Source of the DNA: Bolinopsis microptera
Taxonomy: Eukaryota > Ctenophora > Tentaculata > Lobata > Bolinopsidae
DNA: 64,000 nucleotides
Direction: 5' to 3'
NCBI RefSeq assembly: GCF_026151205.1
Contig: NC_087072.1
Span: 12,626,169-12,690,168 of the forward strand
Positions 1,691-50,193 of this stretch are shown here, piece after piece (positions within the stretch are counted from its first letter, which is position 1; every line of letters starts with the position of its first letter). The translations under genes were made by a program, and so were the position numbers. The notes beneath the pieces were generated by a model. It was not told where the DNA came from, did not search any database, and saw nothing but the letters and a program-made list of their open reading frames with translations.

Positions 1691-3548
1691 TTCTTTGTCG
1701 AAGACTCTCTTTCTCCAGCATTATGATGGGACAGTTTTCAGCACCAGAGTGATGGGTGTTACAAGATTCTCTGTATGATTCATAAGTGGAGTGTGAGCAG
1801 TTGGTGCATCTGTGACTTCTTCTGACCTCTTTGTAGGGACAAGCCCGGGTTATGTGTGATGCACTACAATACATACAAATAACATCAGTTTCCTGGCACT
1901 GAGATGAAATGTGTCCCAGTTTCTGACATCGGAAGCACTGCTTAAGATCAAATCTATCAACTACTTTACATCTGGAATTTCCTATGTAAATGGACTGATT
2001 GTTTAACAGGAAATGCCTTATATCAGGAGACACTTTAATCCCAACAGTAGTGTATTCTCTTCCATAATTGACATACACAACTTTAAATGTTCTATCATGC
2101 TTGGTCACCAAATCTTTAACATATTGATTCTTTTCCAGAAGCTTCACTTCCATGAAGGTTTTAACCTTCTCTCGAAATTCAGGAACTGATAGATTTTCAG
2201 AGACAATGTGGGAGATTAAGTTGTTTGGAATATTCGTAACTGTGACTTTCGGGAACATTTTCTTTGCATCATTAACAGTGATTTTGGACGAAGTTACAGC
2301 TGATGAGTTTGCAAGGGCTATTTTCCCATTCTCTCTATCTTTTTCTGAAGGGAAGGAGATAACAATTTTGCCTGTCTTTGGTTTAGGGGTCAAGAAGATC
2401 ATGGGTATTGTACCAAGGGCTTTGCTAGCTAGCTTTCCTGCTTCCTCAAGATTAATATTACTAGCTTCTACATTGAGGACGATAACATGATTATCAGGAG
2501 CATTATTATGGGTATTGTCAGAGGGAAGTTTTTGCATAGGAGTTTCCTTCTTGGTTAGTTCTATGAAGTTCTCAGTAGCAGTACTAGTCGGGCTATCTAT
2601 AGCCGATTCAGGAGACAACGCAACACTGTAGCTCTTTGAAGATGAAAGTGAACTGGTAGACTTCATTGGACAAGCACTTAAAGAACTAGATGTTTGCAGG
2701 GCTAGGGCTGATGCACTACTAGGGATAGATGATGCACTACTAGGGGTGCTGGATCTTTGTGTAAGATTTGGTACTTCTGTGAGCAGAGAATCTATTTGTG
2801 ATTTAAGTTTGACGGAAATAAGTTCTTCTACACTTGACAGTAAACTTACTTTAAAATTGCTCAAAGTTTCAATCAATGTCTTCTCATCTCCATTGCTGGA
2901 AGTTGTATCAGTGGTGATACTAGCCCCACTTTCAGTGCTAGCCACACTTTCAGTGCTAGCCACACTCTCAGTGCTAGCCACACTCTTGGTGCTATCCATG
3001 CTTGTATTACAAGTTGAGTCCGCAGTTTTAACAGCAGTTTTTGCAAGGAGAACTTTCTTACAGTTAGGACATGTCCAGCCAAAGTCACCATATCTTTGGG
3101 AATATGTATTACTGTATTTGTGAATAACTGGCAAAATATTCGTCAGGAAAGTCCGTGTACAAATAGACGTGGGCATAAGTGTGCCAGCCTTATCCTTACA
3201 ACATGCGTGGAAAACGTCTTTACATATCTGACAAGAAATGGACTCATAGGCCATGTTATCACTTTTACAGCGACAACACAGCCCTTGGAGATTAAACTTG
3301 GGGACTGCTTTTGGGTTAATGGCACTTTTCTTTGGAGGGGCTTTAGAATCTTTAGAAAAATCTTTAGAAAAATCTTTAGAAACATCTTTAGAAACATCTT
3401 TAGAAACATCTTTAATCTTTAGTATAGGTTTTTTTGATTTAACAGTACCTTTGTCTGAGAGCTTCTTTCTCTTTTTCTCTGCTTCTTCACTGCTGGGCGT
3501 TTGGCCTGCAGCCTTGTCATTTGTCATAGCTTTGAGGCTCGGGATCAT
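1632..3548 (-). CDS. LINE ORF1 protein with PHD-like finger and CCHC zinc knuckles
   Basis: An intact 638-residue ORF upstream of the ORF2 remnant. It has a lysine-rich N-terminus with a short repeat (DVSKDVSKDFSK), then a PHD-like zinc finger at about residues 90-165 (paired CxxC, CxxCx4HxxC and WTCPNC). A low-complexity Ser/Thr region follows with repeated STESVA units (about 190-215). Two nucleic-acid-binding zinc knuckles lie near the C-terminus (CFRCQKLGHISSQC, and a CxxCx3Hx4C variant) with a further Cys/His cluster after them. This is the known layout of ORF1 proteins in several CR1/L2-like LINEs, where ORF1 acts as an RNA chaperone in the retrotransposon RNP. The stop overlaps the start of ORF2. 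ORF1 is open while ORF2 is broken, so the copy is young but inactive. Confidence 0.85.
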   Translation of the reverse strand: MIPSLKAMTNDKAAGQTPSSEEAEKKRKKLSDKGTVKSKKPILKIKDVSKDVSKDVSKDFSKDFSKDSKAPPKKSAINPKAVPKFNLQGLCCRCKSDNMAYESISCQICKDVFHACCKDKAGTLMPTSICTRTFLTNILPVIHKYSNTYSQRYGDFGWTCPNCKKVLLAKTAVKTADSTCNTSMDSTKSVASTESVASTESVASTESGASITTDTTSSNGDEKTLIETLSNFKVSLLSSVEELISVKLKSQIDSLLTEVPNLTQRSSTPSSASSIPSSASALALQTSSSLSACPMKSTSSLSSSKSYSVALSPESAIDSPTSTATENFIELTKKETPMQKLPSDNTHNNAPDNHVIVLNVEASNINLEEAGKLASKALGTIPMIFLTPKPKTGKIVISFPSEKDRENGKIALANSSAVTSSKITVNDAKKMFPKVTVTNIPNNLISHIVSENLSVPEFREKVKTFMEVKLLEKNQYVKDLVTKHDRTFKVVYVNYGREYTTVGIKVSPDIRHFLLNNQSIYIGNSRCKVVDRFDLKQCFRCQKLGHISSQCQETDVICMYCSASHITRACPYKEVRRSHRCTNCSHSTYESYRESCNTHHSGAENCPIIMLEKESLRQRTEYSKTCKDYASQPKCRTV

Positions 3549-3972
3549 ACCTCAATAAATGTAATAGATTTAATGTGTGATTGCGTAACTTATTTATCAG
3601 TTGATCTGATTTTCAGCTTACTTTTCTTTATTTTTGATGACTTTTGAATCAGATCGTAGTTGAATTATTAGTCTCCTTGAATCATATTAGTACATAGAAT
3701 AAAGTTGACCCATAATTCTGAGTATCGAATTTAAATATCCAGGGCAGAGTCACCCCTATAATTTGTGATCACGCCACCCTCTACCAAGTCAGTAACCAGT
3801 AGCTGAGAAGCAACAATAACCATAGTAGCACATAGTAACCGGTTAAACGAAATCATAGTAACCGGTTAAACGAAATCATAGTAACCGTTTAAAAGTAACC
3901 ATAGTAACATTATAAGTAACCATAGTAACATTATAAGTAACATTACAAGTAACCAGAGTTGCCCTGATAGCG
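3549..3972. other. Spacer between LINE 5' end and KCTD9, with short AACC/TTTAA repeats
   Basis: No ORF. On the minus strand 3549-3600 would be LINE 5' leader. At 3549-3570 lies the motif CTCAATAAATGTAATAGATT, which recurs at about 31682 and 48073. From about 3805 to 3955 there are short direct repeats built on CATAGTAACCGGTTAAACGAAAT and TAAGTAACCATAGTAACATTA, placed just upstream of the first KCTD9 ATG. They are therefore in its likely promoter or 5' UTR. No TATA box or initiator can be called with confidence. Confidence 0.5.
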
Positions 3973-14845: not shown

Positions 14846-15412
14846 TCACCAACTATTAATGTTATGTGTGCAGTTTAGGTACACATTAAGAGAGAAGTCA
14901 GGATTTAGGTGAGCTTTGAAGTACAGTTTCTTGAGGTGAGGGTGTACTTGAGCACATGTTAAACCTTCTTTCAGGATCCTGTCACTTATCACTCGGTGGT
15001 TTTTGTCAGATGTTGGAATGCTAGCATAGTACTCTTTAGATTCATTATAGACGGCTAGATCTTGCAGGCCCAAAGAAGTTTGAATCTTCACAATCATGTC
15101 CTCATTTGTTTTGACTGAATTTCCAATTGCTTTCTTTCTGTGTCCTGTAACTTTACCCGTGAGTAAGCTTATATTGGTATTAATTGCACGGTCCTTTTCG
15201 TAGATGGGATAGACCTTCAAAACGCTGCAACTCTTCTTATGGTTACCCCAATCACGCTTCTGACAGACAGTGTTGCAATATCTCACTGATTTACAGGCTC
15301 CACACTTAAGTAACTTCACCTCAGTATTACCACAATCCTCACAACAAGCTTCTCCAGCTTCTGGTAATTCAACCAGTTCCTGCTGCACTTTTCTTCGAGC
15401 CAAATCTGTCAT
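14846..15412 (-). CDS. Intronless MYND zinc-finger protein, 188 residues
   Basis: The single ORF has a complete MYND finger at residues 24-62: C24, C27, C37, C40, C46, C50, H58 and C62, with the typical RYCNTVCQKRDW core. MYND fingers are known protein-interaction modules that bind short proline-containing motifs. The remaining 125 residues have no domain I recognise; there is no SET domain, so it is not a SMYD enzyme. The ORF has no introns and lies inside the TIR-bounded unit 14176-15668. It may therefore be a retrocopy or a captured gene fragment. Whether it is expressed cannot be told. Confidence 0.7.
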   Translation of the reverse strand: MTDLARRKVQQELVELPEAGEACCEDCGNTEVKLLKCGACKSVRYCNTVCQKRDWGNHKKSCSVLKVYPIYEKDRAINTNISLLTGKVTGHRKKAIGNSVKTNEDMIVKIQTSLGLQDLAVYNESKEYYASIPTSDKNHRVISDRILKEGLTCAQVHPHLKKLYFKAHLNPDFSLNVYLNCTHNINSW

Positions 15413-15789
15413 AATTTACCGCTGCGAAAATGTCACTGGTTATAACAAACATTTTGTCTGAAATTAAACTGACAATATCAAGTCGAAGTTCTTATGTGAA
15501 AACGGATTAAAAATTAATTGAAATTGATTTAATCTAGCGTCTCTAATCTCCTTAACAGCACACATAATTCACAAAAAATGGAAAACATCGACCCATTTTG
15601 CCAAAGAAGAGACTCGAACAGAAATTGATGAAGGCCAACGCATGTGCCCACTGACTTTTGGCCCACCCTGTATATTTGAACGAACTCAACGTAGACAATA
15701 ATGAATAAATTGTTTCAACGTTGAAATTTCGTAAATTAATACCATTAAATTGTGTTTGATTTTTTTCAAGAATGTGCCGAAATCATTCA

Positions 15790-31859: not shown

Positions 31860-34800
31860 ATGAATCAAGATGAAACACACAAGTGGCCTTGTACAACATG
31901 TAGTTATGCAAATTGGCCTCTTGCAAGAAAGTGCACGCTGTGTTTGACTCCCAAAGAAAGTGTCATAGATGTGGAGAAAGGGAAGGTTAAAGCTGAGATA
32001 ATACAACCACCTAGCAACAAATGGACTTGCAAGGTAATATTCGGGGACCCATAACGAAAGAATTCATCTACTTTGAGTACTCGTAGATAGTGAGCAGTTT
32101 ATACTTAGCTAGTATAACATCAAAAGATGTTCTGTAATTAATTCTTCCTTCCTCAGAATTGTACCTATGACAACTGGCCTGTCACGAAAAGGTGCACAAT
32201 GTGCCAGGTTTCAAAGGATGACACAATAATAACAGCTCCAAACGAGAGTGAGCAGACCTCTGATGGTGCGTGTGGTGCGTCAACTAAAACCACTGCTTCT
32301 GGTATTGTGAGGAATTCTAGGAGGTCTAGGAAAAACAGATCAACCTGCAACGAGGTTGGAGTTTAAACACCTAACTTAATATGCATTTCTAGCAACCCGG
32401 CATGAATGAATTATAACGATAATTATAATTCTAAAACAGTTTATTACTGTTTAATCACAGTGAAAATATTTAGACAGCAATTTTGCTGATATCCCCTATA
32501 ACTCTATAATAGCCAAACACTAACCGTGTCACACTCCTCAATCACTAACCGTGTCACACTCCTCAGTCACTAACCGTGTCACACTCCTCAGTCACTAACC
32601 GTGTCACACTCCTCAATCACTAACCGTGTCACACTCCTCAATCACTAACCGTGTCACACTCCTCAGTCACTAACCGTGTCACACTCCTCAATCACTAACC
32701 GTGTCACACTCCTCAATCACTAACCGTGTCTCACTCCTCAATCACTAACCGTGTCACACTCCTCAATCACTAACCGTGTCACACTTCTCAACCACTAACC
32801 GTGTCACACTCCTCAATCACTAACCATGTCACACTCCTCAACCACTAACCGTGTCACACTCCTCAACCACTAACCGTGTCACACTCCTCAATCACTAACC
32901 GTGTCACACTCCTCAATCACTAACCATGTCACACTCCTCAACCACTAACCGTGTCACACTCCTCAATCACTAACCGTGTCACACTCCTCAATCACTAACC
33001 GTGTCACACTCCTCAATCACTAACCGTGTCACACTCCTCAGTCACTAACCGTGTCACACTCCTCAGTCACTAACCGTGTCACACTCCTCAATCACTAACC
33101 GTGTCACACTCCTCAATCACTAACCGTGTCACACTCCTCAATCACTAACCGTGTCACACTCCTCAACCACTAACCGTGTCACACTCCTCAATCACTAACC
33201 GTGTCACACTCCTCAATCACTAACCGTGTCACACTCCTCAACCACTAACCGTGTCACACTCCTCAGTCACTAACCGTGTCACACTCCTCAACCACTAACC
33301 GTGTCACACTCCTCAATCACTAACCGTGTCACACTCCTCAACACTAACCGTGTCACACTCATCAGTCACTAACCGTGTCACACTTCTCAGCCTGCTGACA
33401 AATGGGTGTGTTCTAAGTGTACGTATGTGAACTTCCCCAAGACAAAGAAGTGTGTAATGTGCCAGACCTCTCCTACACCCACCTACATAAGACAGGTTAA
33501 ACCTAACATTCAGGGTATATAAGCGGGTTAAACCTAACTTTCAGGGTCTATATTATAATAAGACAGGTTAAACCTAACTTTCAGGGTTTATATTAGGGTG
33601 TATTAGGGTTTATATTAGGTTAAGTTCAACTGATTGTTAAATTTGTTACTGTTACTCCCATTATGATAAAAGTTATGGTTTTACATAAAATACCTTCAAT
33701 TGAAAATTCTTCAAAATCTTTAGATTCTTGAACTTAAAACTGAGCTGGTAACCAACCTAAACAGTAAATATGAAATGCAGCTTCTGCTACAAATCGGCGG
33801 AAATATCGATATTACATTCGTTTCGTGTGATGTAAACTTACTGCGACAAAATTGCAACGGCAAAGACATTCGCCAATTATCTCATTAAACGTCCGACAAT
33901 ACGTATATCCCCAAATCCAATAATGAGGCTGTCTGTCTTGAGCGTAAACTAACTCTGTCTCTCCTCCACATTCTCCGCGATATTCTAACTTCCTCCCTCT
34001 ACAGCTCTCCAACTCCAGCTCCAGCAGCACAGACAGTATACACAGCACTGAGTCACGTCGCTCCGGTACGTCACGTATTATAGAGAAGTGCACGCGCACC
34101 GAGCAGCGCAGCACTCTCCGGCCGGACAGACCGGAGGGGCGCAGGCCAGAGAAGCGCAAACTACTTTATGATTCTACCAGGAAGAAGCAAATAAGAAATA
34201 AAATACTTCAAGAGGATTGGATCTGGATACATGCGTGTATTGGTAAGTACACTGTGTACAGCGATATATGTACTATACATAACACTATGCATTACTATAA
34301 TTACATAATGTGTATTCTGTAAACTTCAATTTGTGATATCGGTATGATAAAATGTTGTTGGAAATTAGATGATTGATTCTAAGATAAATAAGTTTGTCCG
34401 TTGGCCAGGCTCCAGTAGCGTATTGCTAAATACTCGCACGCACATATCTATATGAAACATGTGTCTATTGACCTTACACTCAGCATGCTATTTGTACAGA
34501 ATGGCAAGCCTTTTAAACAGTCTGCATGGCTTCATGGTTATACCGAAGTTAAACGTTCTGAAGAGACAATAAAGATATTAATTATATTATTGAATTTCTT
34601 GAAATGGAGGTGCGCTTTTTAATAGTCAGCGTGCACCGCATCACCACCAGTAGTAGCGCACCTTATATGGGCATCACGTGATATCTACCACGTCCCTGCT
34701 GTAAGCACACACAATGCAGTGCACAGTGCACACAATGCAGTGCACAGTGCACACGATGCAGTGCACAGTGCACCCATTAACATGTTACACACAAGTGACT

Positions 34801-37800
34801 GCAACAGTGATTAGCACTCGCCCGTTGGAATGTGTCGAGTTTAACATATTATTATTATTGCAGCTGATCTGGATGCTAATTCTTTCTCCGCTAGCTTGCT
34901 GGCTGCATGCCATATTCAGGATTAACGTCGGAGTCTATGAAAATTAAAAGCAATTATATTCTTGAAAAGATGATGAAATTATTTCTCGACAACAAAAAGC
35001 CTGACACAATGTTTAGTAAATGATTAGTAAATGTGCGCTAAGAAAGTATAACGCCCTGTGTTTTAATGCAATACTGTTGTGTGAATGATTATTGGAAGTG
35101 GGCCAAATACCAAAAAACCCTCAAGGTTGGATGTTTCAATTACTCAGAGCTGAGGGGCCCTTTACATACAAACACAGTTCACTCAGGTCACCCATCTTAC
35201 TATATATAAAGCGAGACGGCATCAAGTTAACACGACTTTCCTTAAAAACCGTAGAAGATATATGACTTAAACTTTTTTGACTGGTTCAAATACTTTAATG
35301 GCCTTCATATCAGCATGAAAAGATAAAAAATTGGCCAAGGAATAAGAATTTTAGTGCCCAAAATTTGGATTCCCAATGGTGTCAAAAACGCGAATTAAAT
35401 AGGTAATATAATTGTTTTAGTATCTTGAGTCTTGACACCACTTTAGGGTTAGACAGGTTAGACGGGTTCCTACTAGTAGCTCTAACGTGCTATTTCTGTC
35501 AGGTTATTTAACCTTTACACTTTACAGGTGCAATTGACGGAGACCCTATCCCGGTAGAGACGTATATCAAGAGAATAGGGAGCATCACACGCGCTCTGAC
35601 CCCTGAAGAAGCGCGAGTGCTGAGTTGCGACACACACACAGTCGACCCGGGTCAGAGTCTCATTCATCTGGCACTCCAACGGCACTCCAATCACAACGTC
35701 CTTGTAGTCCTTCTCAGTCATCAACAACAGGTAAAGTACGAAAGTTGTGACGCACTGGTCATCTGGTCGCTCACCAGGGAGTGACCCATGTGGTACAAGT
35801 TTTACTGTGCAGTGGTGAGCCATTGTGACATGACCATGTTTGGGCATGTTTCGCTGGCGGCTTGCCAGAATTTGTAATGGGAGACTGGGTTGCAATTGTT
35901 GAGCAGGTGGCGTTGACACGTGATGCCCATATAAGGAGTGGCGTTGACAGAACGTTATTTAGCGTGTAAAGTTGTTTTTCTGAGAAACTTATCCAAACTC
36001 ACAACTATGGAAACTATTTTACCTTATAAAGTGCGTTTTTCAATACGGCACTCGCACAGGTTAATAAATTATAAATACCCGCACAGGTTAATCACGCGCT
36101 TCAGTAAATTTATATTATTAATTTCATATTAATACATCTCCGATTCCTATAATAGCTTTTGCTGTGGAGTTTTATTACCTTAAATGTCCTTCACGAGCAT
36201 AAAACTAGTATAGTAATCAGTAGATAACACCCAGTATTTCCTCAGTCGAGACCCAGTGGAACAGGGGGGAACCTAAAAAGAATGCCCTCGTACGAATGTC
36301 CGAGTACAGCTACAGAGATCAGACGAGTTGTAGCCAGTAACCTGAGGCAGTACAACCATGGAGATTTCTACTGTCACTACATGAGCGATCCTGTTACTTT
36401 CATCCTTCCCTACGGTATGTGAGCATACCTCCGTATACTAGTATAGCTTTATACACTATTACTGTGCCAGTGTATACACTATTACTGTGCCAGTGTATAC
36501 AATATTACTGTGCCAGTGTATACACTATTACTGTGCCAGTGTATACAATATTACTGTGCCAGAATATACAATATTACTGTGCCAGTGTATACACTATTAC
36601 TGTGCCAGTGTATACACTATTACTGTGCCAGTGTATACAATATTACTGTGCCAGTGTATACACTATTACTGTGCCAGTGTATACAAGTTATTACTGTGTC
36701 AGTGTATACAATATTACTGTGCCAGTGTATACACTATTACTGTGCCAGTGTATACAATATTACTGTGCCAGCGTATACACTATTACTGTGCCAGTGTATA
36801 CACTATTACTGTGCCAGTGTATACACTATTACTGTGCCAGTGTATACACTATTACTGTGCCAGCGTATACACTATTACTGTGCCAGTGTATACACTATTA
36901 CTGTGCCAGTGTATACAATATTACTGTGCCAGCGTATACACTATTACTGTGCCAGTGTATACACTATTACTGTGCCAGTGTATACACTATTACTTCTGTG
37001 AACAGTGGAATGCGGGTAGTGAGGCTTGGTCTGTAAGTCAATCTGTTAAGAGAACAGAGCCGCAATAACGTGTGGTGCTAATTCTTAGGTCTGGGAAGGC
37101 TACAAATAAAATATCAAAAGCTGCATGCCCAAACATGCCCTAATAGGCTTGTTTGAATACTTGTTTTATTGAGACATAACATCGTCACAGTTGCGTTGTG
37201 TTTGGTAGCATATCTTTTTTTGCAGCATCTGCAGCAGCTAGATTATAACATCGTTACTGCTAAATCTGAAGATGTGAAAGTTTAGACTTTCCATTTGGCT
37301 TGAGTCCAAGAAAATCGCGCTGGATATATCAAAAACCGTACGTGCCATGCTTGCATATATTCAGAGTTATGTCTGAAGTGATAATACGTGTGTGCTTATC
37401 AAAAGTTGTTATATTTTATGTAACATGCACATGAACCGAATTGTAAAACTAATGATGGATGTCTGGTTCTGAACATTCACAATTAGGCTAACACTGTATT
37501 ACAATTATAGGTTATAACACTGTATCACTGTATTATATTTATAACTAACACTGTTTTCAAGTAAAAAACAGGGCTGGGATATTATTATTGGTCTCGGGGG
37601 GAAATAAGCGGATTATGATATTGATATGACAATGTTATTCATGTGTAAATTCTCAATTACTAACCAAGTTTAACTTACCCACTATTTCAGAGATATTTTC
37701 GTTTGGCAGTTACACACAAAAGTGTTTATTTGACGAGATCCTGGACCTAGAGGCGCAAAGAGGTAATTTAATCTTTGTGTTAAAATGCTGAGCTGGGGCA

Positions 37801-40800
37801 TTGACTAATCTTAACAATCATGCAAACCATAGCAACTATTTAAGTAAAATGTTATATTTAGTGTTAACCATAGCAACTAAAGCTATATTTAATATGTTAT
37901 GTAAAGCATAGCAACTCCATATGGCATATAATTACACTACGGGGCCCAATATTCGGCTTTAAAACTGTGAAGCTATTTTGGGAGCCATATCACGTGTTGC
38001 CACGTGTTATGTCACGTGTTATGTCACGTGTTATATCACGTGTTATGCCACGTGTTATGTCACGTGTTATGTCACGTGTTATGTCACGTGTTATGTCACG
38101 TGTTATGTCACGTGTTATGTCACGTGTTATGTCACGTGTTATGACGGGTCAACTATAGTTTGTACACTGCTGAACTGTAAAGTGACCTCAAGTATTATAT
38201 TATTATACTAAAGTACTATTTTACTCAATGCTTATTGAGGACACCTCAGAGTAGTGCAATATTACACACGCTATTCAGCTGCAATAACCGCTAATAGTAT
38301 ATATATATAATAATATGAGATAGGCAATATGATCATACCCTAAATTCAATACTTCATCGACTCAACGTCATATTCTCCATTTCTTCTGCTTTTGAAACTG
38401 AGATCACTACAACTCTGAGCTAGTAATATTATTAAGCTAACTTTAAGAGATAAGATGAAAAAAGTGTAGTCATATTTCAAACCGTTGAAATATTGCCATA
38501 TTATTATCAGTAAGATTATACACAGTGTACACACTGCACAGTTGTGCTGAAATACACATGAACTGGGATTGAGTAGGAGTGTGGGGTGATTCTGAGACGT
38601 TAAGATAAAATCCTCCTGTATTAAAATATATTATCCTGCATTACACGTTTACACTCGTCTGATTTAGGTAATTTCAAAACGGTGTTTAAAGTTAAATGTT
38701 ATATTAAGGGAATTAAGGGAAATGGGGAGATCGTATGGCTTACTAAGATGATATGCACAGTGTGACAAGTGGGGTGTGACAAGTGGGGTGTGACAGGATC
38801 ACAGTGGTTACACAGTCTGGTCTGTAACATCCTACATTACTCACACTCACAGTCCTAACTTTACTGTCTCCGTTGTCGGTGCGAGGGCTAGTGCCTATAA
38901 TTATTGGACTAGCTTATAATTCTAACATAAATAATTCTAGCCCTGAAATTTCAATCTTATATGAAGATATTATATTTAAAAAGTATCTAGTTGTGTGGGG
39001 TTACCATGGGCACGCACACTGTTATTCACATTATTTAACACGTGACACATTATTTAACACGTGATACATTATTTAACACGTGACACTTAACTTAACACGT
39101 GACACGTTATTTAACACGTGATACATTATTTAACACGTGACACTTAACTTAACACGTGACACGTTATTTAACACGTGATACATTATTTAACACGTGACAC
39201 TTAACTTAACACGTGATCTATTTCAGTGCTGGAGGAGAACAGAGTGGTTAACTGGAGTAAGGAGATCGTAACTAAACACAACAGTAAACTTTACGCTCTC
39301 TGGAACAGGAGTGCTGGTGACTGTCTTCTTGACAGTGCTTTACAGGTAAATATAAGCAGTAAATGGTATTACTATTATAATAAAGTACACTGCTTTCCCC
39401 TTTAAACGGGCCGTGGTTCAACTTTCACCAGGATTTTAAGGTGATTTTGGGGTTTTCCTTTGTTTATTCTCATCTTGATTATGCGGGACCCCGTTCTTTG
39501 TCTCGTTCTCATAGTGTCCACGTTTTGTTGTATACATATTACATATGGTACCCTACTGGGTACTCTCTCCTGCTCCCGTTAACACACACACTAACTCTCT
39601 CCTGGCTAATGTCTAGTGTATCACTGTGTCTAACAATGTTACAGTACTCCTACTCCATTATTCTAAATCCATACAGCCGATACTGTACAGCGTCTATTTG
39701 CTGTTACTGCTGCGTCTACTACACTTAGCTCACGTACTGGTTGTTGAGTAGACAATACCACACACTATTCAATATTCATATACTCAGTGCACACTGCACA
39801 CTGCACACTGCTGCGGAGAGAGATAAAACCTGGATTATAAAGTGTTATTAGTGTCCACTCTACAGAGTTACTGCTCTGTGTGTTATGTGTGAAGTAGTGT
39901 CACTGAACGTATTGCACGTGTAACTGCGCGTGTAACTGCACGTGTAACTGCACGTGTAACTGCACGTGTAACTGCGCCTGTAAATATGTGCTGTCTGTTA
40001 TCTGCGTGGTATGTAGTGATTTAGTACAGTCTATACCTCTAAAACCATAATATTAGTATATTTAACATAATATTTATTTCTGCGTTATGATAATGTGTGG
40101 TATGCTGGGTGTTTGAGTGCCCTCCTAGTAACTTTACAGTCTACATATCTACTTACTGCGTTGTCAGTAACTGTACTGTGCACGGAGTCCTTACAACTGT
40201 CACTGCTGTACAAGGTATAACTACCACTATATTCCTCAGAATAATGTTTCACTAACTAACTATTTAATTTCCAGTTAAAACAGACTGCAGAGGTTGTTCG
40301 CGTCTCCTAGGTTTCACTAATTTCATTACACTAGGACTTTAATAGTAGTAGGACATTTAACGCAGTAATACCCGCTGCGATCATACTTTAAATCACATAC
40401 ACATTGCACAGCTTGACAAGCCGATCTGAATTTAAAACATTTGTGCAGCTCGGCGTTGAAATAATGAGATTTACCGACTGAAATTGATAAATATAATGAT
40501 TTAACGACCACTGCTGGAATATTATAATATGATAATTAGTCCGCGATAAGAGCAACCGCCCAACTAAAGTAGACGATAATTGAAAGTTGCGGTAAATAAG
40601 TTGGGCGGTTGCCAAATAGCAGCGTGACCGGTACTGCAAGTACCGCAGTGGTGCGGTAAATAAGTTGGGCGGTTGCCAAATAGCAGCGCGACCGGTACTG
40701 CAAGTACCGCAGTGGTGCGGTAAATAAGTTGGGCGGTTGCCAAATAGCAGCGTAACCGGTACTGCAAGTACCGCAGTAATCCTGTATCTGGTCAAAACCT

Positions 40801-43800
40801 GGCACAACTTAGCGAGTTTAGAAGGTTTGAGATGTTATTTGTGCTCCCTAGGGTCTCAACTTCAAAAAAAATTTGGGTGGATAATTTTGTATGTTTGTTT
40901 AAACCCGTGACCACGCCCTTTTTAAAGCGTGGGAAAATTTTCCCAAAATTATTGAAATTTGCCTATAATATTTGATGGGGGTCTCTAAATAGCTTGATAT
41001 GATGCCATCAGTATTACTAGAACATAATAAAATAAAATTTGGGTAAATAAAAGTGTAGTGGCACCCTGACCACGCCCATTTACACAATTTTTGGCGGAAA
41101 ATTCGGAAAATTCGAAGTTGTTTACTCTAGCAGCAGGGAGGTGTTTAGTGTGTATTTAAACTGCTGAATCAAGTTAAATAGGTTATATAAGTAACTTAAT
41201 TCAATTAATTGGGCATGTTGAGCCATTAGTTCAGCCTTGGGGAACCACGCCCATATTTCATATTAGGCGCGTATGTGAGAAATTTTTATCTCAGCTTCTG
41301 AAGGCCGTAGAAACTTAACTTTGGGCTTAAAACTACCGCAATATGTAAGTTTATATTGACACTATTAAAGTATTCAGGTGCTGAAGCTCTCCAGGACTTA
41401 CTTTTGGATAAAAATGAGAAAAACTGATATAATTTACTGAAGCGCATTAACCCATATTCACCCATGGGCCTTTTCAAAAAAAACTTCCCTAGCAGCTAGG
41501 TTAAGTCAAGTAGGCACATCAATGTATAAAGTTTTACTCGACACAGTGTCCTTCGTAAGGTCTAAAGGTCATTCTGGGCTAGAATAATTTGATTTTGGGT
41601 GCCCACTTTTATTAGTAGTCCAACCCTGTCCTAGCTGTGGTAAAATTTCTAAACTGCCCTCAGGCGCAAATATATGATTTTTCTATCCATCTCAGCTCCT
41701 GAATATTGTAGGACATTCAAGATAACCACAACAGCAGAAAAGCCATATTTATATACATTATACAAGCTATGAAGCAGTACATGGGGTGCATGAAGCAGTA
41801 TGGGGTGCATAGTTTTTGAGATATTTATTTTTAAAACATGATTTTTAAATATATCTTGGGCTACCGCATTTATCTTGGGCTACCGAATTTATGTACCAGT
41901 ACTATCAGCTCATCTTAGAAATCACAAACAACCCGCCGGGCAGCTATCTCTAGTTAAGCTCATTTCAGTACCCGTTGACTATAATATACCCGTTGACTAT
42001 AATATACATAAAACATTATCGATTTTTACAATCTACACACTATTTTCAACTCACCCTGTATGCCCACTTTTATGTCAGTACAACCTCCTAGCTCTTTCCA
42101 CCCACCTCAATCTCATTTAGGAAACTCCAGCAATAGCTAACTGCAGCTCTAGCTATCTTCTGATATTATCCTTTCCCTCCAATATTAGCTCTTTCTACTG
42201 ACCTCAATCTCATCAAGTGACAAGTAAATTCCGGTTTTAGCAACCTTCAGTTATCTCTAGGCTCCAAATCTACCCTGTTGCTGCCCTCTTCAACTAATTG
42301 TAGCTTCTAGCCTGCTAGCTATCACCAGTATCCTACAAATCTAAATTTTATAGCAACCTTTTGGAGGTCTTTCACATATTAAGTAATCATTTTTGGAACA
42401 TTTTGAAAGAGCTTTAATTGTAGGATGTTGATGCTATTACATGGATAGAGTAAATTGCAACAGTCGTTGCTGGAAAATGATAAAGTTACTTGAAGAACAC
42501 AAATGGATGGAGCAGGAAGTTATTGGCAGAAGAACTGGAATAGTAGGCTTCCAGTGGCCGCTGGATAGAGCAGAGGGTTAGAAACCGACCGGTCAACGGT
42601 TTTGGCCACCGGACCGGAAAAGACAGGATACGGTTTGCCGCATTTTGCCGGACCGGAACCGGGTAATGTCGGCCAATCACTAAGATTCACACTCCCTGGC
42701 TCGTAGCCCGTAGGACTAACCCCCTACAACTAGTATACGAGTATAGTGCCTTGACACAGAGTGCAAGTGGGTTAGGGTTACTGAAAAGGATATAAGCATC
42801 TCAGGCCATCCCAATACCGGAAGAGAACTGGGGGTCACAATGGTGAACAATTGTGAAAATGGTGAAATTTTACAATGGAAACAAAATCATTCACTATTTG
42901 TCACCATTTTACACGATTTTTCACCAAATTAGAATGAAGTTGAAGTCACTGGAAAGAGCTAGAATTGGAGGGAAAATTAATATTAGGATAGGGCTGGAGG
43001 TAACTGTTAGTAGCTTCAGCGGCTGCACGACTTCCAGGCCCCCCTATTATTATGGGTCAGATCATATGACGTATAATTAGTGATGTGACGCATAATTAGT
43101 GATGTGATCCACCATCTATGATTTACAGAACATGTGATTTGAGTCATTACAACAAGTCAGTAATGACTTGCTGCTCTTTAATAACTCTTAAGGGATATGC
43201 AGGGAGCAGCCTCACCTCACTGTCCACAATGACTGACCCAAAGTAAGTCTTCTCGAAATAATTAACTATAGACATTAGCTTAGGCAAGTTTGTCTGTATA
43301 TAGTACGTTATTTCAGAGAATACTTGCTCGACATCAGATCGGCTCACTCCCGTTGCATTTCTTTGGCACGTACGTCTGACATCCCTAGATACGAGAACCC
43401 CCCTTAGCTTTACCAAGAGCTCCCGTCCCTTATGTGATATACGAGTCGAGCGGTCAAATCTTAAAGATCATGTTTACTTCTTAATGCACAGCTATGATAC
43501 ATACAGAGTTGACATGTGAACTCTACCCTGTATCTCGCCCATTTCTAGGTCAGTTAAATTCTACCGATGGATCACATCACTAATTATACGTCACTGATTA
43601 GTGACATGATCAGATCTCCATGGGACCCTAATAATGGGGGGACCTGGAAGTCGGCCTTTTGCTTCAGCTGGACTTTGCTAGATGAGGTTGTACTGACATA
43701 AAAGTGGGCATATATTATAGTCGACGGGTACTGAAATGAGCTTAACTAGAGATAGCTGCCCGGCGGGTTGTTTGTGATTTCTAAGATGAGCTGATGAGTG

Positions 43801-46800
43801 ATGCAGTGGCGTAACGAAAGGCCCTGCTGACCCCGCTGTGCAGGGGAGCGCCGTCTTAGGGGGGCGCCAAATCGTCGTTTGAATGTGGGACAATTTCGAA
43901 AACTTCACTAAAGTACTAGCAAAACTGCGCGTTTTGATCTAGATACACACTTTTTTAGAGATTTTACCGGCGTATTCTTTAAAATCACCTAATTTGTTCA
44001 ATTTTAGGGAGGGGCACCAAAAGGGGAGGGGGCGCCAACAGGGGGGCGCTTTTTTCGGCAGGGGGGCGCCAACAGGCAACGTTACGCCACTGGAGTGATG
44101 GTGCTGGTTCATAAATGCGGTAGTGTTGAACCTTTGTTGTATTTTTAAGCGCAAGATATATTTAAAAATCATGTTTTAAAAATAAATATCTCAAAAACTA
44201 TGCACTATAGACCCCATACTGCTTCATAGCTTGTATATAAATATCAATATGGCCATTCTGCTGTTGTGGTTATCTTGAAAGTCCTACAATATTCAGGAGC
44301 TGAGATGGATAGAAAAATCTTATATTCGCGCCTGCAGGGCAATGTAGAAATTTTACTACCTAGGCCAGGGTTGGACTACTGATAAACGTGGGCACCCAAA
44401 ATCAAATTATTCTAGCCCAGAATGACCTTTAGACCTTACGAATTTTACTCGACCGTGTCGAGTAAAACTTTATACATTGATGTGCCTACTTGACTTAACC
44501 TAGCTGCTAGGGAAGTTTTTTGTTTGTTAATGCGCTTCAGTAAATTATATCAGTTTTTCTCATTTTTATCCAAAAGTAAGTCCTGGAGAGCTTCAGCACC
44601 TTAATAGTGTCAAAATAAACTTACATATTGCGGTAATTTTAAGCCCAAAGTTAAGTTTCTACGGCCTTCAGAAGCTGAGATAAAAATTTCTCACATTCGC
44701 GCCTAATATGAAATATGGGCGTGGTTCCCCAAGGCTGAACTAATGGCTCAACATGCCCAATTAATTGAATTAAGTTACTTATATAACCTATTTAACTTGA
44801 TTCAGCAGTTTAAATACACACTAAACACCTCCCTGCTGCTAGAGTAAACAACTTCGAATTTTCCGAATTTTCCGCCAAAAATTGTGTAAATGGGCGTGGT
44901 CAGGGTGCCACTACACTTTTATTTACCCAAATTTTATTTCATTATGTTCTAGTAATACTGATGGCATCATATCAAGCCATTTAGAGACCCCCATCAAATA
45001 TTATAGGCAAATTTCAATAATTTTGGGAAAATTTTCCCACGCTTTAAAAAGGGCGTGGTCACGGGTTTAAACAAACATAAAAAATTATCCACCCAAATTT
45101 TTTTTGAAGTAGAGACCCTAGGGAGCACAAATAACATCTCAAACCTTCTAAACTCGCTAAGTTGTGCCAGGTTTTGACCAAATACTTTATTATGGTGTGT
45201 TACAGATAACTACCGCCCTGAGCTGGTGAAATGTTGTTCAAATATTGCGTCACCTGATACCTCCCAATTACACACTGAATTTCACACTGAAACTCTGAAA
45301 CCTGATTTCTTGTTAACAAGCGAGACACTATCAACTAGGTTCACATTAGTAGAGACTGTAATATTGGCAATTTAAACAAGTTTTACCAGGCTGACTGTCA
45401 TTTCCTTTCACTTTTCTCCCCCAATAAATGTAATAAGTGTAAAGTGTTGATATAGTTTATATAATACCTGCCTATTTTAAAACTAGTCCCGGATGTGCCT
45501 GGTGTTATCAAACGTGTTATCATTAGCCAATATGTGTGTTAACAATATGTGTGTTAACAATATGTGTGTTAACAATATTTGTGTTAACAATATGTGTGTT
45601 AACAATACGTGTGTTAACAATATGTGTGTTAACAATATGTGTGTTAACAATATGTGTGTTAACAATATGTGTGTTTTCATTTACAAACTCTAAAACCGCG
45701 TACACGCAACCTGTATGCTGCCCGTATGCTGTGGAAACCCTGTATTCTACTTTGAAGTTTAGTAACCAAGTATCCCTTTTTAACTTATCTTGTACTTCTA
45801 TAATTTAACACTTTTATTAATAAATAATATGTTCAATAAAGTGCAGATTACATTAGAAAGTTAGTAAGTTCGCTACATATATAGTATAATAGGTTTGTTT
45901 TATAACTGAAGAGCCATTCAGAATCCAGATGAAGATGCTTTTAAAACTTTATAAATACATCCAGCATAAGATGCCGTATATATTCTATAATATAATATTT
46001 AACATAATATATAATATAATTAACAGATAAGTTTGTTAATCAAGTGTTATTCAGGCAACATGGGGAGTTAACGATAGGGACGGGTCTCTGAGACGAGCAC
46101 TTTCCAACACACTTGTACACGCACAGGACAAGTTAGTCAAACTCTACACATTTTAGTAATATAGAGATAATAGAGATCTTTATATTTGTGATGTTCTTTT
46201 TGCGTATCTCATATCACAAGTCCAGACAAGTTTAACCATTGTAATAATGGAGGAGGAGGAGGAGCTCCTCCTTCTTTATTTCTTGTCGATTTCATTGTCT
46301 CGTCTCGCTCTCCGCTTTCTCCGCAGCAAATTGAAGCTAACAAAACATAGCAAATTACAAACTATTATTATACAATGTTGTACCTATAACAATGAATGTT
46401 ATAGGTACAACAGATATTATCAAATTACATCATTCATTGTGCGTCTTGGTCTGATACAGACTTCAGGGCTAATACTAATCCAGGAAGTTATGAATATATA
46501 TTAAATAATGTACTTACAATGTATAATGTGCAATGTATAAATTATAATGTACTTACACTCAACCTAATATGCTTATTGCTTAATGTATGGACTATGGAAA
46601 CTATAACAAATTTTATAATTGTAACCATGGTAACAATGGTACAAAGCCTCGTATGCTGTATTCTGGCAGTGAGCCACGTATTTCCTCGTCACAACTTCAT
46701 TTATAGTAACCGTCAAATGTTAATGTATACAGTGAATAGTGAATACAAGTCAATGTATACAGTGTATACAAGTCAATGTATAAATATCTGCTGGTTAGCT

Positions 46801-49800
46801 TTAGTAGCAGCCAATATGCGGTTTGTATGGTCGATATTGCGTGTATACACACACACCTGCCAATACACAGTCCTGTAACAGTGAGCACCCCACCTGTTGT
46901 AGTGTTAGTAGTAGCAATAAAACTCATTTATTAGCTTGTGCAAGTTGCACATTTCATCCAGTTATTGCTTGAAAACACTGTGTCTGTGTGTGAGTCATGG
47001 CAGGTCTAATGAAATATATTATCGGAGTTATGCGGAGTGAGTGGATTGTGTGGAACAAAACAGCCACATTCCTGCATTTCCAGTGAGATTACGTCAAAAA
47101 GAGAGTATTGTTGCACAAAAGAAATTACACTCCGATATAAAATTATATTCAGAAATATGAATATCAGCTAACTTATTCTGTGGAATTAAATAATTTTGTG
47201 GAATTATATAATTTCTGTGGACTTTGTTCAATTTAGTTTTAAACATAGATCGTGCCGAGTCTTATGAGAACGGCGATAAATTACCTGGCATCCCCCTCTG
47301 GAGAATCATATGAATAGTATGCAGAAAAATAGGAAATGACCCTCTCCATATAAGGTGATGTTACCATATAAGGTGATGTTACCATATAAGGTGATGTTAC
47401 CATAGTTATACTACCTGATATTAACTCCCGCTGGAGGGAGTACGAGTGTATGCACGCAGCTAACCTGCACTACTCCCCCAGGTTGTACCCCCGCTGGAAG
47501 GAGTACGAGTGTATGCACGCAGCTAACCTGCACTACTCCCCCAGGTTGTACCCCCGCTGGAAGGAGTACGAGTGTATGCACGCAGCTAACCTGCACTACA
47601 CACTAAACGAGTCCCAGTGGAGCACTGCCTGGAAGAAGCTAGTGAAGTTAGCGGAACAACCGGGCAAGTCCCTCGAACAAGCGCACATATTCTGTCTAGC
47701 GCACGTGCTCCGCAGACCTGTCATAGTGTACGGGGTGAAGTACGTGCACAACTCCACTGGAGAGGTGCTGGATTACGCGCGATTTGAAGGTAAGATATTC
47801 TGACTTGTCTGTTTTTAAAGTTAATGTGTGTGGTCACGTGAAATGTTGTATTTGTCACGTGATATTTTGTATTTGATCCCAGCTAGACAGCACATATCAC
47901 ATCTCACTTATCACAACAGTGTGGTCTGTTATAGCCAGGGTCTACCTTTATAAAGCAATGAAAGGCATTAGTTTGGTCAAATCAAACGGAACATATGCTA
48001 TCAGACTTTCAACTGACTATGGCAGGGTTAAAACAGTTTTAACGCTAGCAACGATCCCCTTTTACATAGTTCCACTCAATAAATGTAATAGATTTGTAGT
48101 GTTGTAATTAGTTTTTTAAAAAAATTATAGCGTGCTCAGATATTTGGAGTTTTTAATTAGATATGTGGGTTCGTGTCTGAAGAAATAGCTTCTATATCTG
48201 AGCCAAAAGGAAGCTACTAGACACGGGAATACAGCAAACTTTTCTCGTTATCTACTATCTTTACATAGTGATATAGAGTTAACTGTGTGTACTAAACATA
48301 CAGATTAGGTCTAGTATAATATCTGGGTATGTATAAACCTGCTGTCTGCACTGTACTTCAGTGTGTTGCAGTGCGGGTATAGACAGATGTATAGCTTATA
48401 ATTGGAAACGTACTGTCTGATAATGTTCGTATGTGCATTGTGCACTGGAACATGGAGTGTGGTCACATCGCATGCTCTTTAAAATAAGTTACTTTTAAAA
48501 ACCCTCAAATATTTGACTTATTACTGCAGCTTATTACATTTATGTGGCGTATACTCGCTACCTATGGCTATATTTAGTCCTGGACGGTAGAGGCATTTAG
48601 ATGTAATTTAGTACTGAGCTTCTGCTGTGCATTTTAAAGAGGTGATGGTTTCTCTCTCAAATACCCCAAAATTTAATAAACAATTTGACCTAACATGAAA
48701 GGACATAATATCTTTATTATTTATAGTGAACAACCATCAAGTTCCAACCCTATCAATACAGTAAGGGTATTTTCCAGTTTCTAATCATGTCTACCCGTCT
48801 AACAACCCTAATAGTTGTTGCGTCACGTCACCCACTTTAAGGTTTTTTCATAAGGTGAACTGTCGATCCCGGTATTATTCTCCAGGCCAATTTTCGAGTG
48901 CGCGGCACCGGTCTACAGGTGTGAGCAATCCGCGTGTTAAATGTAATAGAAAACGAAATTTTAGCGTATCTGTTTTGCTGCGCGCGACGCGCGCAATTAA
49001 GTGACACGTGAAATTAAGAGATTTCTCTCCCGAATCGTGTTTTATGATTAGAACCAAAATCTCCCTAAACTAAACCGTCAAATTCACTTGACACTACTTC
49101 ATAACCCACACACACATTAACAAGAATTTACCCCCAGGAATATATCTACCGCTCCTGTGGGGATCAGGATGTTGTATAAAGTCTCCTGTAGTACTGGGAT
49201 ACACGCGAGGTCACTTCTCTGCTCTAGTCGGGATACAGCAAGAAAGCGACGATAGTTCTATATTACTACCTCTCACTGACTCGCAACATCAGCCTCTACC
49301 CCTTCACTTCATTACTGAGGAGGAGGTAAATCATACACACAGCTATTTAGTTTTTTTACTATTTGCATTTCTTTTTTTTTCTTCAACTGAGTTGTTTTGG
49401 GACACGTTATTCGGGAGCATCGTGACATGTATAACTCTTTCCATCAATAGCTCAAAGAAAAGCTTTAAAGCAAAGCAAAGTTGATCACCACAAACGTAAC
49501 ATGTACAAGTGACCTCCATCATCGTGTAATTAAAGCGGTATTTTAAGAACAAATAAATTACAATTAGAACAATCATTACTCATCGTGCTCTTCAGTTTAG
49601 TAATTTAACTGTTTAACTGCAGAATAGATGTTTAACTGCTTCAAATATCGAGGGGTAATTTGTTTTTCATGCTTGAGATTTCAATACCACGTGACAAACT
49701 GTTAGAGTTGAAACATGTAACACCTCAAATTGATACTAGAGTGCGTTACACAGTTACACATAATGCACTAGAACAGAGGAATGCAGGTCAAATAGTTGCT

Positions 49801-50193
49801 TCATCATGATTAAAATCAATTATTTAATCTACAGTGTGATAAACCACTAACCAACAACATTTTTATTTTGATGAAAAAACGTCAACCTATCATGGTTCCA
49901 ATTAGTTGAACGCATGAAGTTATTTGTTAGCATAAATTCTAGATGGCTATCATGATGATTACTCTCACGTCCTATATTTAATATTTTAATGGACGTTAAC
50001 TTTGACAAAGTTGTAACCTCAACTCCCCTCTAAGGTTGGTCTGCAGAACGAACTGATCAGAGAATGGTTTGAGACCACCGAGACGAGCAGTGGCGTGCTG
50101 TGCGCCGTACAACGGGTCTCAAGTCTTCACATACTAACTCAGAGACTCATCAATGGCTGGCTTCTCAAATACAAAAGAACTAACACCACCTAA
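31860..50193 (+). CDS. ZRANB1: TRABID-type OTU deubiquitinase with three NZF fingers, twelve coding exons
   Basis: Coding exons: 31860-32033, 32157-32354, 33391-33495, 34005-34242, 35528-35730, 36246-36414, 37691-37762, 39227-39345, 46055-46131, 47545-47789, 49138-49325, 50035-50193. All phases agree, giving 648 residues (vertebrate TRABID is about 708). NZF1 C11/C14/C25/C28, NZF2 C57/C60/C71/C74 and NZF3 C131/C134/C145/C148, each with the (S/T)YxN(W/F)P signature, bind ubiquitin. Residues about 220-370 match the ankyrin-like ubiquitin-binding region (LQEDWIWIHACIG, GQSLIHLAL). The OTU domain has the Cys loop NRSAGDCLLDSALQ (C419) and the His motif GYTRGHFSALV (H559). In other animals TRABID cleaves K29/K33/K63-linked chains and acts in Wnt signalling; here that is inferred from homology. 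The start is the only ATG before NZF1, 7 bases past a strong acceptor. Exon 10 has an alternative in-frame acceptor at 47482. Confidence 0.96.
32517..33390. repeat. 25-bp minisatellite that ends as a splice acceptor (TRABID intron 2)
   Basis: About 35 units of CACTAACCGTGTCACACTCC plus TCAAT. The last unit, variant CACACTTCTCAG, is the actual 3' splice site of the NZF3 exon (33391). CACTAAC resembles a branch site and ACACTCCTCAG an acceptor, so each unit is a miniature 3' splice signal. Most units end CTCAA instead of CTCAG; several keep CTCAG. Confidence 0.95.
33489..33620. repeat. Short repeats carrying the NZF3 donor sequence
   Basis: ATAAGACAGGTTAAACCTAA occurs at the exon end (donor after 33495) and again with ATAAGACAG at about 33566. 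A partial third copy (GGGTTAAACCTAAC) lies between, and TATTAGGGT repeats follow. Confidence 0.75.
34711..34773. repeat. 21-bp repeat, three copies (TRABID intron)
   Basis: ACAATGCAGTGCACAGTGCAC is repeated three times, with a palindromic GTGCAC core. Confidence 0.85.
36440..36995. repeat. 23-bp minisatellite next to a TRABID donor
   Basis: About 24 units of TATACACTATTACTGTGCCAGTG, beginning about 25 bases after the donor of the exon ending at 36414. All the three-frame ORFs here are repeat artefacts. Confidence 0.95.
37990..38147. repeat. 12-bp TCACGTGTTATG minisatellite (TRABID intron 7)
   Basis: About 13 copies, each containing the palindromic CACGTG E-box word. Confidence 0.9.
39029..39216. 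repeat. 18-bp ACACGTGACACATTATTT-type minisatellite
   Basis: About ten units, each with CACGTGA(C/T)AC, running to within about 10 bases of the acceptor (39225-39226) of the catalytic-Cys exon. Confidence 0.9.
39914..39980. repeat. 12-bp CACGTGTAACTG repeat
   Basis: Five to six units, some with GCGTG in place of CACGTG. The third array in TRABID introns 7-8 with a CACGTG core. Confidence 0.85.
40589..40778. repeat. 64-bp tandem repeat, three copies (TRABID intron 8)
   Basis: The unit starts GCGGTAAATAAGTTGGGCGG and contains the palindromic GGTACTGCAAGTACC. It ends 10 bases before the left arm of the large inverted repeat. Confidence 0.9.
43147..43416 (-). CDS. Unidentified ORF in the loop of the foldback element
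   Basis: 89 residues, starting MVKLRGVLVSRDVRRTCQ. It is the only ORF in the loop and could be the remnant of a transposase. I cannot assign it to a family; there is no DDE/D motif in this stretch. Confidence 0.25.
   Translation of the reverse strand: MVKLRGVLVSRDVRRTCQRNATGVSRSDVEQVFSEITYYIQTNLPKLMSIVNYFEKTYFGSVIVDSEVRLLPAYPLRVIKEQQVITDLL
43804..44092. mobile_element. 289-bp hAT-type element with 8-bp duplication
   Basis: Ends CAGTGGCGTAACG and its inverse CGTTACGCCACTG. Flanks GAGTGATG at 43796-43803 and 44093-44100 are identical. The mirror arm of the host foldback, at about 41890-41920, shows the empty site. The interior is rich in GGGGGCGCC words; no transposase. Confidence 0.9.
45529..45674. 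repeat. 15-bp ATGTGTGTTAACAAT minisatellite
   Basis: Ten units with a GTTAAC palindrome in each, in TRABID intron 8. Confidence 0.92.
46376..46412. other. Perfect 16-bp inverted repeat (hairpin) in a TRABID intron
   Basis: TGTTGTACCTATAACA, a 5-base loop, then its exact complement. It would form a stable short hairpin in RNA or DNA. No known RNA class is recognised. Confidence 0.8.
47345..47402. repeat. 18-bp CCATATAAGGTGATGTTA repeat, three copies
   Basis: Just upstream of the tandem exon copies at 47424 onward. Confidence 0.85.
47424..47608 (+). repeat. 63-bp tandem triplication of a TRABID exon start with its acceptor
   Basis: The unit is CCCCCAG acceptor plus the 5' coding part of the exon (LYPRWKEYECMHAANLHY). 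The second and third units start at 47482 and 47545, and both have complete acceptors. The first unit (about 47424) has lost its acceptor and reads TTAACTCCCGCTGG. The period is 63, a multiple of three, and the frame stays open through all units. Confidence 0.92.

Follow-up and report, generated by a model that had tools for sequence, protein, structure and literature searches.

The window analysed here is the whole stretch of 64,000 nucleotides taken from NC_087072.1 of the ctenophore Bolinopsis microptera (positions 12,626,169 to 12,690,168). It has a GC content of 38.1 per cent and is rich in tandem repeats, with 45 merged arrays (period of at least 10) covering 9.0 per cent of its length. 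Judged by its sequence, the main gene considered here is the orthologue of TRABID/ZRANB1 (table 1), and the phases of the 11 introns of the model are consistent. Both the RanBP-type zinc finger (PF00641) and the OTU domain (PF02338) score over the Pfam cut-off in the 589-aa model, PF00641 with one stretch that passes alone; three CxxC...CxxC modules can be recognised in the gene model, and a pattern search recovers two of them. When the OTU part (exons 8-11, short form) is compared with solved OTU proteins, it scores 240 bits with human ZRANB1 (3zrh), 147.7 bits with OTUD7B and 95.2 bits with A20. Exons 5-7 match residues 29-165 of 3zrh_A (E = 1.2e-19), which is their sole match in the PDB. 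This region before the OTU domain is presumably the one labelled AnkUBD (ankyrin-like ubiquitin-binding region).

Table 1. Features of the TRABID locus and exons of other genes with repeated splice sites. Positions are those of the window unless preceded by a label.
Feature	Position	Strand	Remarks
TRABID/ZRANB1 orthologue, as modelled	31860-50193	+	12 exons, 589 aa
Exon 8	39227-39345	+	motif GDCLLDS
Exon 9	46055-46131	+	donor GTTAGT; leaves 2 nt (phase 2)
Exon 10, short form	47545-47789	+	donor GTAAGA; long form from 47482
Exon 11	49138-49325	+	LGYTRGHFSAL; acceptor likewise CCCCCAG
Unit 1	47424-47471	+	48 nt; lacks 15 nt of the 63-nt unit and with them its CCCCCAG acceptor; one A>G
Unit 2	47472-47534	+	63 nt, complete; acceptor precedes 47482; split codon, then 17 full codons
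Unit 3	47535-47597	+	63 nt; acceptor precedes 47545; continues into the remaining exon
Weak AG in unit 1	47435-47436	+	CTGGAG/GG, start 47437; poor context; would add 36 aa
CTAAC, branch-site-like	47460-47464	+	unit 1 codons GCT AAC; A at -19 of the upstream acceptor
Upstream acceptor CCCCCAG	47475-47481	+	predicted; would yield 21 additional aa
CTAAC, branch-site-like	47523-47527	+	unit 2 codons GCT AAC; A at -19 of the exon-proximal acceptor
Exon-proximal acceptor CCCCCAG	47538-47544	+	predicted; would yield the normal OTU domain
Kinesin exon (L111)	C2:6087272-6087445		three acceptors, 49 bp apart
Kinesin exon (L150)	C2:22514338-22514518		three acceptors, 49 bp apart
Myosin exon start (TSQLQLKFNYF)	L010:2836-3058		72-bp array, 3.1 copies; outside the counted exons
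Myosin exon end with GPTGSGKS (L041)	C2:3177087-3177426		at least 8 identical donors, 40 bp apart

Further splice sites of the TRABID gene are also located in or beside arrays. A 25-bp array of about 35 copies (32514-33389) ends at the acceptor of exon 3 (exon 33391-33495); its unit resembles a 3' splice site, with CTAAC, a pyrimidine-rich stretch and CA(A/G), and CAG is kept in 7 of the 34 upstream copies. The donor of the same exon (33495) is covered by the array 33487-33592 and is located near its start (AAGACAG/GTTAAACC); another donor-like copy follows further downstream. A 19/57-bp array containing many TTAAC (39027-39216) stops 10 nt before exon 8. The idea that TRABID acceptors are special targets of arrays was considered and dropped: 3 of 11 are within about 10 nt of an array, with 0.104 expected per site (P = 0.098).

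Two further open frames of the window are encoded on the minus strand. The first (14849-15415, 189 aa) contains a MYND zinc finger, and its nearest solved relatives are SMYD methyltransferases. The second (1635-3551, 639 aa) has a weak zinc-knuckle match just below the Pfam cut-off and possibly belongs to a mobile element.

A tandem repeat across the acceptor of exon 10

The sequence 47424-47597 consists of three head-to-tail units of 48, 63 and 63 nt. Tandem Repeats Finder (TRF) reports it as 47427-47599 (period 63 bp, 2.7 copies, matches 99%), and a separate repeat search gives three copies with a spacing of 63 bp; as a repeat, the stretch is far beyond chance. The units are near-identical, in register and cover both the intron and the exon side of one splice site, and the array can thus be classed as a minisatellite. 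Each 63-nt unit contains a C-rich tract, CAG, the last base of a split codon and 17 full codons, with GCT AAC near the end. Units 2 and 3 are identical in sequence. Unit 1 aligns to unit 2 with one substitution and a single 15-nt gap, which is located between two CCCCC runs and includes the AG. We also considered that unit 1 might start at 47424 without ever having had an acceptor: this ungapped alignment needs two substitutions and provides no ancestral acceptor, whereas the 15-nt gap leaves only one substitution and explains the ancestral acceptor. Unit 1 becomes intronic when either 47482 or 47545 serves as the first exonic base.

The array is seen as one assembled copy, representing a single haplotype. 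In a pattern search of the 264.65-Mb assembly, allowing up to three mismatches, the two sites of table 1 are the only ones reported for the acceptor core. DNA and protein searches of the same assembly report no second locus with the TRABID array, with the proviso that weak matches could escape them. Folded as RNA, the array is barely more stable than shuffled sequences (z = -1.66, with 11 of 200 shuffles as good).

Exon 9 ends with AA, and CCCCCAG/G completes the codon AAG. This junction occurs before 47482 and before 47545, with a spacing of exactly 63 bp. Both acceptors are intact and in phase with exon 9, without a stop between them, as in a tandem 3' splice site, and the open frame spans 47390 to 47800. 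The 45 bases upstream of the two acceptors, including CTAAC, are identical. The long form, starting at 47482, would carry the in-frame insert LYPRWKEYECMHAANLHYSPR of 21 residues. As far as can be predicted, the two acceptors are equally good, and an enzyme with or without the 21 extra residues could be made. A scan of the 16 AGs in 47200-47481 found, besides the upstream acceptor, one from which the frame stays open as far as the donor, namely the weak AG of unit 1. The A>G change in unit 1 moves this AG by one base and so brings it into frame, which may be due to chance or reflect a degenerate extra acceptor.

The CTAAC motifs of units 1 and 2 are found at the same distance from the acceptor that follows. 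At 8 of the 10 other TRABID acceptors, a yTAAy lies upstream with its A between -16 and -19. Compared with the rate for CAGs in the whole window (107 of 915, or 0.117, counted over an interval wider than -16 to -19), this gives a binomial P of 1.3e-6. The branch-like motif stands out less among 142 acceptors placed in the broader survey described below, of which 36 show it at -15 to -24, as against 20 at -33 to -42. Plausibly, the coding sequence of one unit serves as the branch site for the next.

The human chain 3zrh_A resembles the modelled protein in that its OTU domain aligns to the short form and its preceding region to earlier exons; it differs in having no 21-residue repeat. The short form aligns to it without gaps across the exon 9/10 junction, whereas the long form gives two stretches that overlap on one human segment (222.6 bits). 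Because of the exon phase and this alignment, 47545 is predicted to give the normal OTU domain and 47482 the same domain with 21 additional residues. An earlier note on this DNA had attributed these two products to the same two sites, and the phase and alignment bear it out; its identification of the gene as TRABID is confirmed by the 3zrh match and by the zinc finger and OTU domains, and its description of the last two acceptors as intact, 63 bp apart and joined by an open frame is accurate. The note had also reported three occurrences of an acceptor-bearing 63-bp unit. The three units are present, but CCCCCAG occurs only twice, the acceptor of unit 1 having been lost in the 15-nt deletion.

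Arrays across splice sites in motor-protein and SNF2 genes

The exon edges of myosin, dynein, SNF2 and kinesin genes were surveyed in the assembly. A splice site was assigned where an AG or GT resembling the consensus stood close to the end of a match and the frame was open, a rule that gets some sites wrong; C2:22511704, C6:14631153 and C1:13076648 appear doubtful on inspection. An edge was scored as spanned when a single array reached 8 nt or more beyond the placed site in both directions. Near-whole-profile matches in a single open frame were left out (2 of 72 for dynein and 4 of 40 for SNF2), as were 10 of the 109 kinesin matches (two of this kind and eight apparent near-duplicate loci) and 3 of the 67 AAA_6 matches (two of this kind and one apparent near-duplicate). 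All 73 myosin matches were kept, together with one apparently duplicated SNF2 pair (C3:18565178 and C3:21278159). The 342 exons used provided 289 placeable acceptors and 302 placeable donors; the DHC_N2 and AAA_6 exons originate largely from the same dynein genes.

Arrays span 18 of the 591 edges, comprising 13 of 302 donors and 5 of 289 acceptors (P = 0.093). For the first set of exons, the counts are 5 of 160 donors and 0 of 142 acceptors (P = 0.063), and for the second 8 of 142 donors and 5 of 147 acceptors (P = 0.41). With a looser measure, which accepts an array up to 15 nt away, the first set gives 5 of 142 acceptors and 16 of 160 donors (P = 0.039), the second 11 of 147 acceptors and 13 of 142 donors, and the pooled sample 16 of 289 acceptors and 29 of 302 donors (P = 0.065). 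The hint in the first set that acceptors are spared relative to donors was thus not upheld in the larger sample by either measure.

Arrays at splice sites are rarer than arrays outside the matched exons (P = 7e-5), where the spanned rate is 6.7 per cent, and commoner than arrays inside them (P = 5e-7), where it is 0.7 per cent. In 14 of the 18 spanning cases, the AG or GT survives in at least two copies of the splice site, with no more than three mismatches around it. The period is not divisible by three in 11 of the spanning arrays (41, 49 and 49 at acceptors; 32, 35, 38, 40, 49, 53, 53 and 62 at donors), is divisible in four (27, 30, 36 and 18/36) and is mixed in three. The periods of the TRABID array (63) and of the array at the start of the L010 myosin exon (72) are multiples of three, and suggested that acceptor-spanning arrays might be kept in frame; the kinesin periods of 41, 49 and 49 bp led us to abandon this idea.

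Three intact acceptors, 72 bp apart, are found at the L010 myosin exon, and the frame is open across the copies. Of the two kinesin exons with 49-bp arrays, one encodes the motif GQTGSGKT and the other FIDLAGSE; at both, the two upstream acceptors shift the frame into stops, and only the exon-proximal copy reads on. If these kinesin genes are functional, the exon-proximal acceptor should therefore be the one used.

Probable origin and predicted use of the copied acceptors

We favour, with a probability of roughly 0.68, the reading that a young minisatellite copied the whole 3' splice site of exon 10, that the last copy restores the normal protein, possibly with leaky inclusion of the 21 residues, and that the array is tolerated rather than selected. 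Exon 10 would originally have had a single acceptor, CCCCCAG/G. A 63-nt stretch comprising the last part of the intron and the first part of the exon would then have been duplicated to give the three copies seen in the repeat structure. Every copy would have been a self-contained 3' splice site, to judge from its motifs: the CTAAC for the copy that follows, the C-rich tract, the AG and the 17 codons. Unit 1 would subsequently have lost its acceptor through the 15-nt deletion visible in the alignment, the order of the two events being the likeliest one. The spliceosome would act mostly at 47545, giving the normal protein and turning the extra copies into intron, and its use of 47482 would yield the 21-residue variant at some level. 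Such a leaky form is possible and translatable because the 63-bp period leaves the frame unharmed.

The array is taken to be young because units 2 and 3 are identical, and a by-product of repeat formation because other genes carry similar repeats across splice sites; it is probably this and no designed switch, and it is probably tolerated like the other splice-site-spanning arrays of this genome. The earlier note had offered regulated variation of the enzyme and a recent neutral duplication as two readings. The second is favoured by the identity of units 2 and 3 and by the recurrence of arrays in other genes; the first finds no support.

By analogy with the kinesin exons, TRABID should mainly use 47545, according to a rule that we derive from the need for a readable frame and that assumes working kinesin genes. 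The 45-nt contexts upstream are identical, and no sequence feature explains a preference for the proximal acceptor. With a duplicated 3' splice site, preference can go to the copy nearer to the donor; in TRABID the main product would then contain the 21 residues. The opposite outcome, in which 47482 is met first by the spliceosome and is the main acceptor, the usual TRABID carries the insert and the short form is minor, is unlikely, although it deserves more weight than the other alternatives. It is consistent with the equal sequence contexts, and if splicing to upstream sites took place and did harm, losing the acceptor of unit 1 would have been advantageous. Against it, the insert is missing at this place from human TRABID and from the related OTUD7B, and under upstream dominance the two kinesin exons with 49-bp arrays could make no protein.

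It is improbable that the upstream acceptor is a regulated alternative 3' splice site maintained by selection, at which the 21-residue insert would alter the linkage choice or the activity of the OTU domain. The intact acceptors, a period divisible by three and a frame open across the units are what such a site would show, and in an AlphaFold model computed for this exon by itself the additional unit appears as a further helix, at low confidence (mean pLDDT 60.3, with residues 5-23 below 50). However, a 63-nt period (a chance of one in three of being in frame) and three stop-free codons of intronic origin are not unlikely by chance, identical units indicate youth and argue against long maintenance, and 11 of the 18 arrays of the survey have periods not divisible by three, so that a multiple of three is nothing special.

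We consider it equally improbable that the array arose in the assembly process, or that it is an uncommon or heterozygous allele of a locus whose usual allele has one unit. The assembly reports one copy of the locus, in which the other haplotype is invisible, and the identity of units 2 and 3 would suit such an origin; but the deletion and substitution of unit 1 go beyond simple assembly stutter, and similar arrays are present at other exons of the same assembly. Least credible of all is the gain of an intron or recursive splicing, in which AG/GT would let the 63 nt from GTTGTA to CCCCCAG leave after splicing to 47482 and the short mRNA would arise in two steps: CCCCCAGGTTGT does contain AGGT, the motif of the Rogers model as it is described in the available part of PMC4974935, and the unit has a branch-like site and an acceptor, but the candidate donor GTTGTA fits poorly with most modelled TRABID donors (e.g. 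GTAAGA, GTAAAT and GTTAGT) and the product would be identical to that of direct splicing at 47545.

Returning to the copying of a splice site by a minisatellite, tandem repeats that alter splice sites are already known as a kind, and the TRABID locus is a further example. In human paralogues, internal tandem repeats at exon-intron boundaries change splicing, according to the available text of PMC2812944. As in TRABID, a tandem repeat lies over an exon edge, is retained or spliced out and gives alternative transcripts. As far as that text goes, the human study compared transcripts of young paralogues, whereas TRABID is a single-copy gene known here from its genomic sequence, and the TRABID repeat includes the native 3' splice site together with a branch-like motif of its own. 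In Drosophila, tandem duplications of coding sequence yield introns, and multiples of three permit alternative patterns (Lehmann et al. 2010, PMC2891723, as excerpted). The likeness is that a duplicated splice motif makes one copy intronic; the difference, on the same excerpt, is that a proto-splice site within an exon was involved there, whereas in TRABID an existing acceptor would have been copied and the intron would have grown at its 3' end. For a tandem duplication in potato, the branch site, the pyrimidine tract and the 3' splice site are described as coming from the parental copy (PMC4974935, in part). TRABID differs from the case given there in that it needs no new 5' splice site and its outcome would be an alternative acceptor, not a new intron. 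PMC4039745 treats minisatellites close to alternative splicing in C. elegans; the subject of the portion available is motifs in introns, not copied splice sites. Among the literature matches listed, no paper deals with ctenophore minisatellites at splice sites, which is weak evidence of absence.

The copied splice sites found across the genome are more interesting than the TRABID locus alone, and the choice among identical copies is testable with RNA data. The TRABID array is a natural test of the choice of the spliceosome between equal acceptors, and also of splicing as a buffer against duplicated exon sequence that brings its own splice site along. Provided that the survey is right, numerous natural experiments of this sort exist in the same animal: its motor-protein genes contain arrays at acceptors and at donors, and splicing to a wrong copy there would in many cases be visible as a frameshift or decay. 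Tentatively, we suggest that the genome may carry a standing population of splice-site-copying minisatellites and that the spliceosome may pick the exon-proximal copy, which would make the arrays self-healing. If this is true, such arrays would continually give rise to longer introns, to displaced exon boundaries and, at periods that are multiples of three (TRABID being one example), to new in-frame isoforms.
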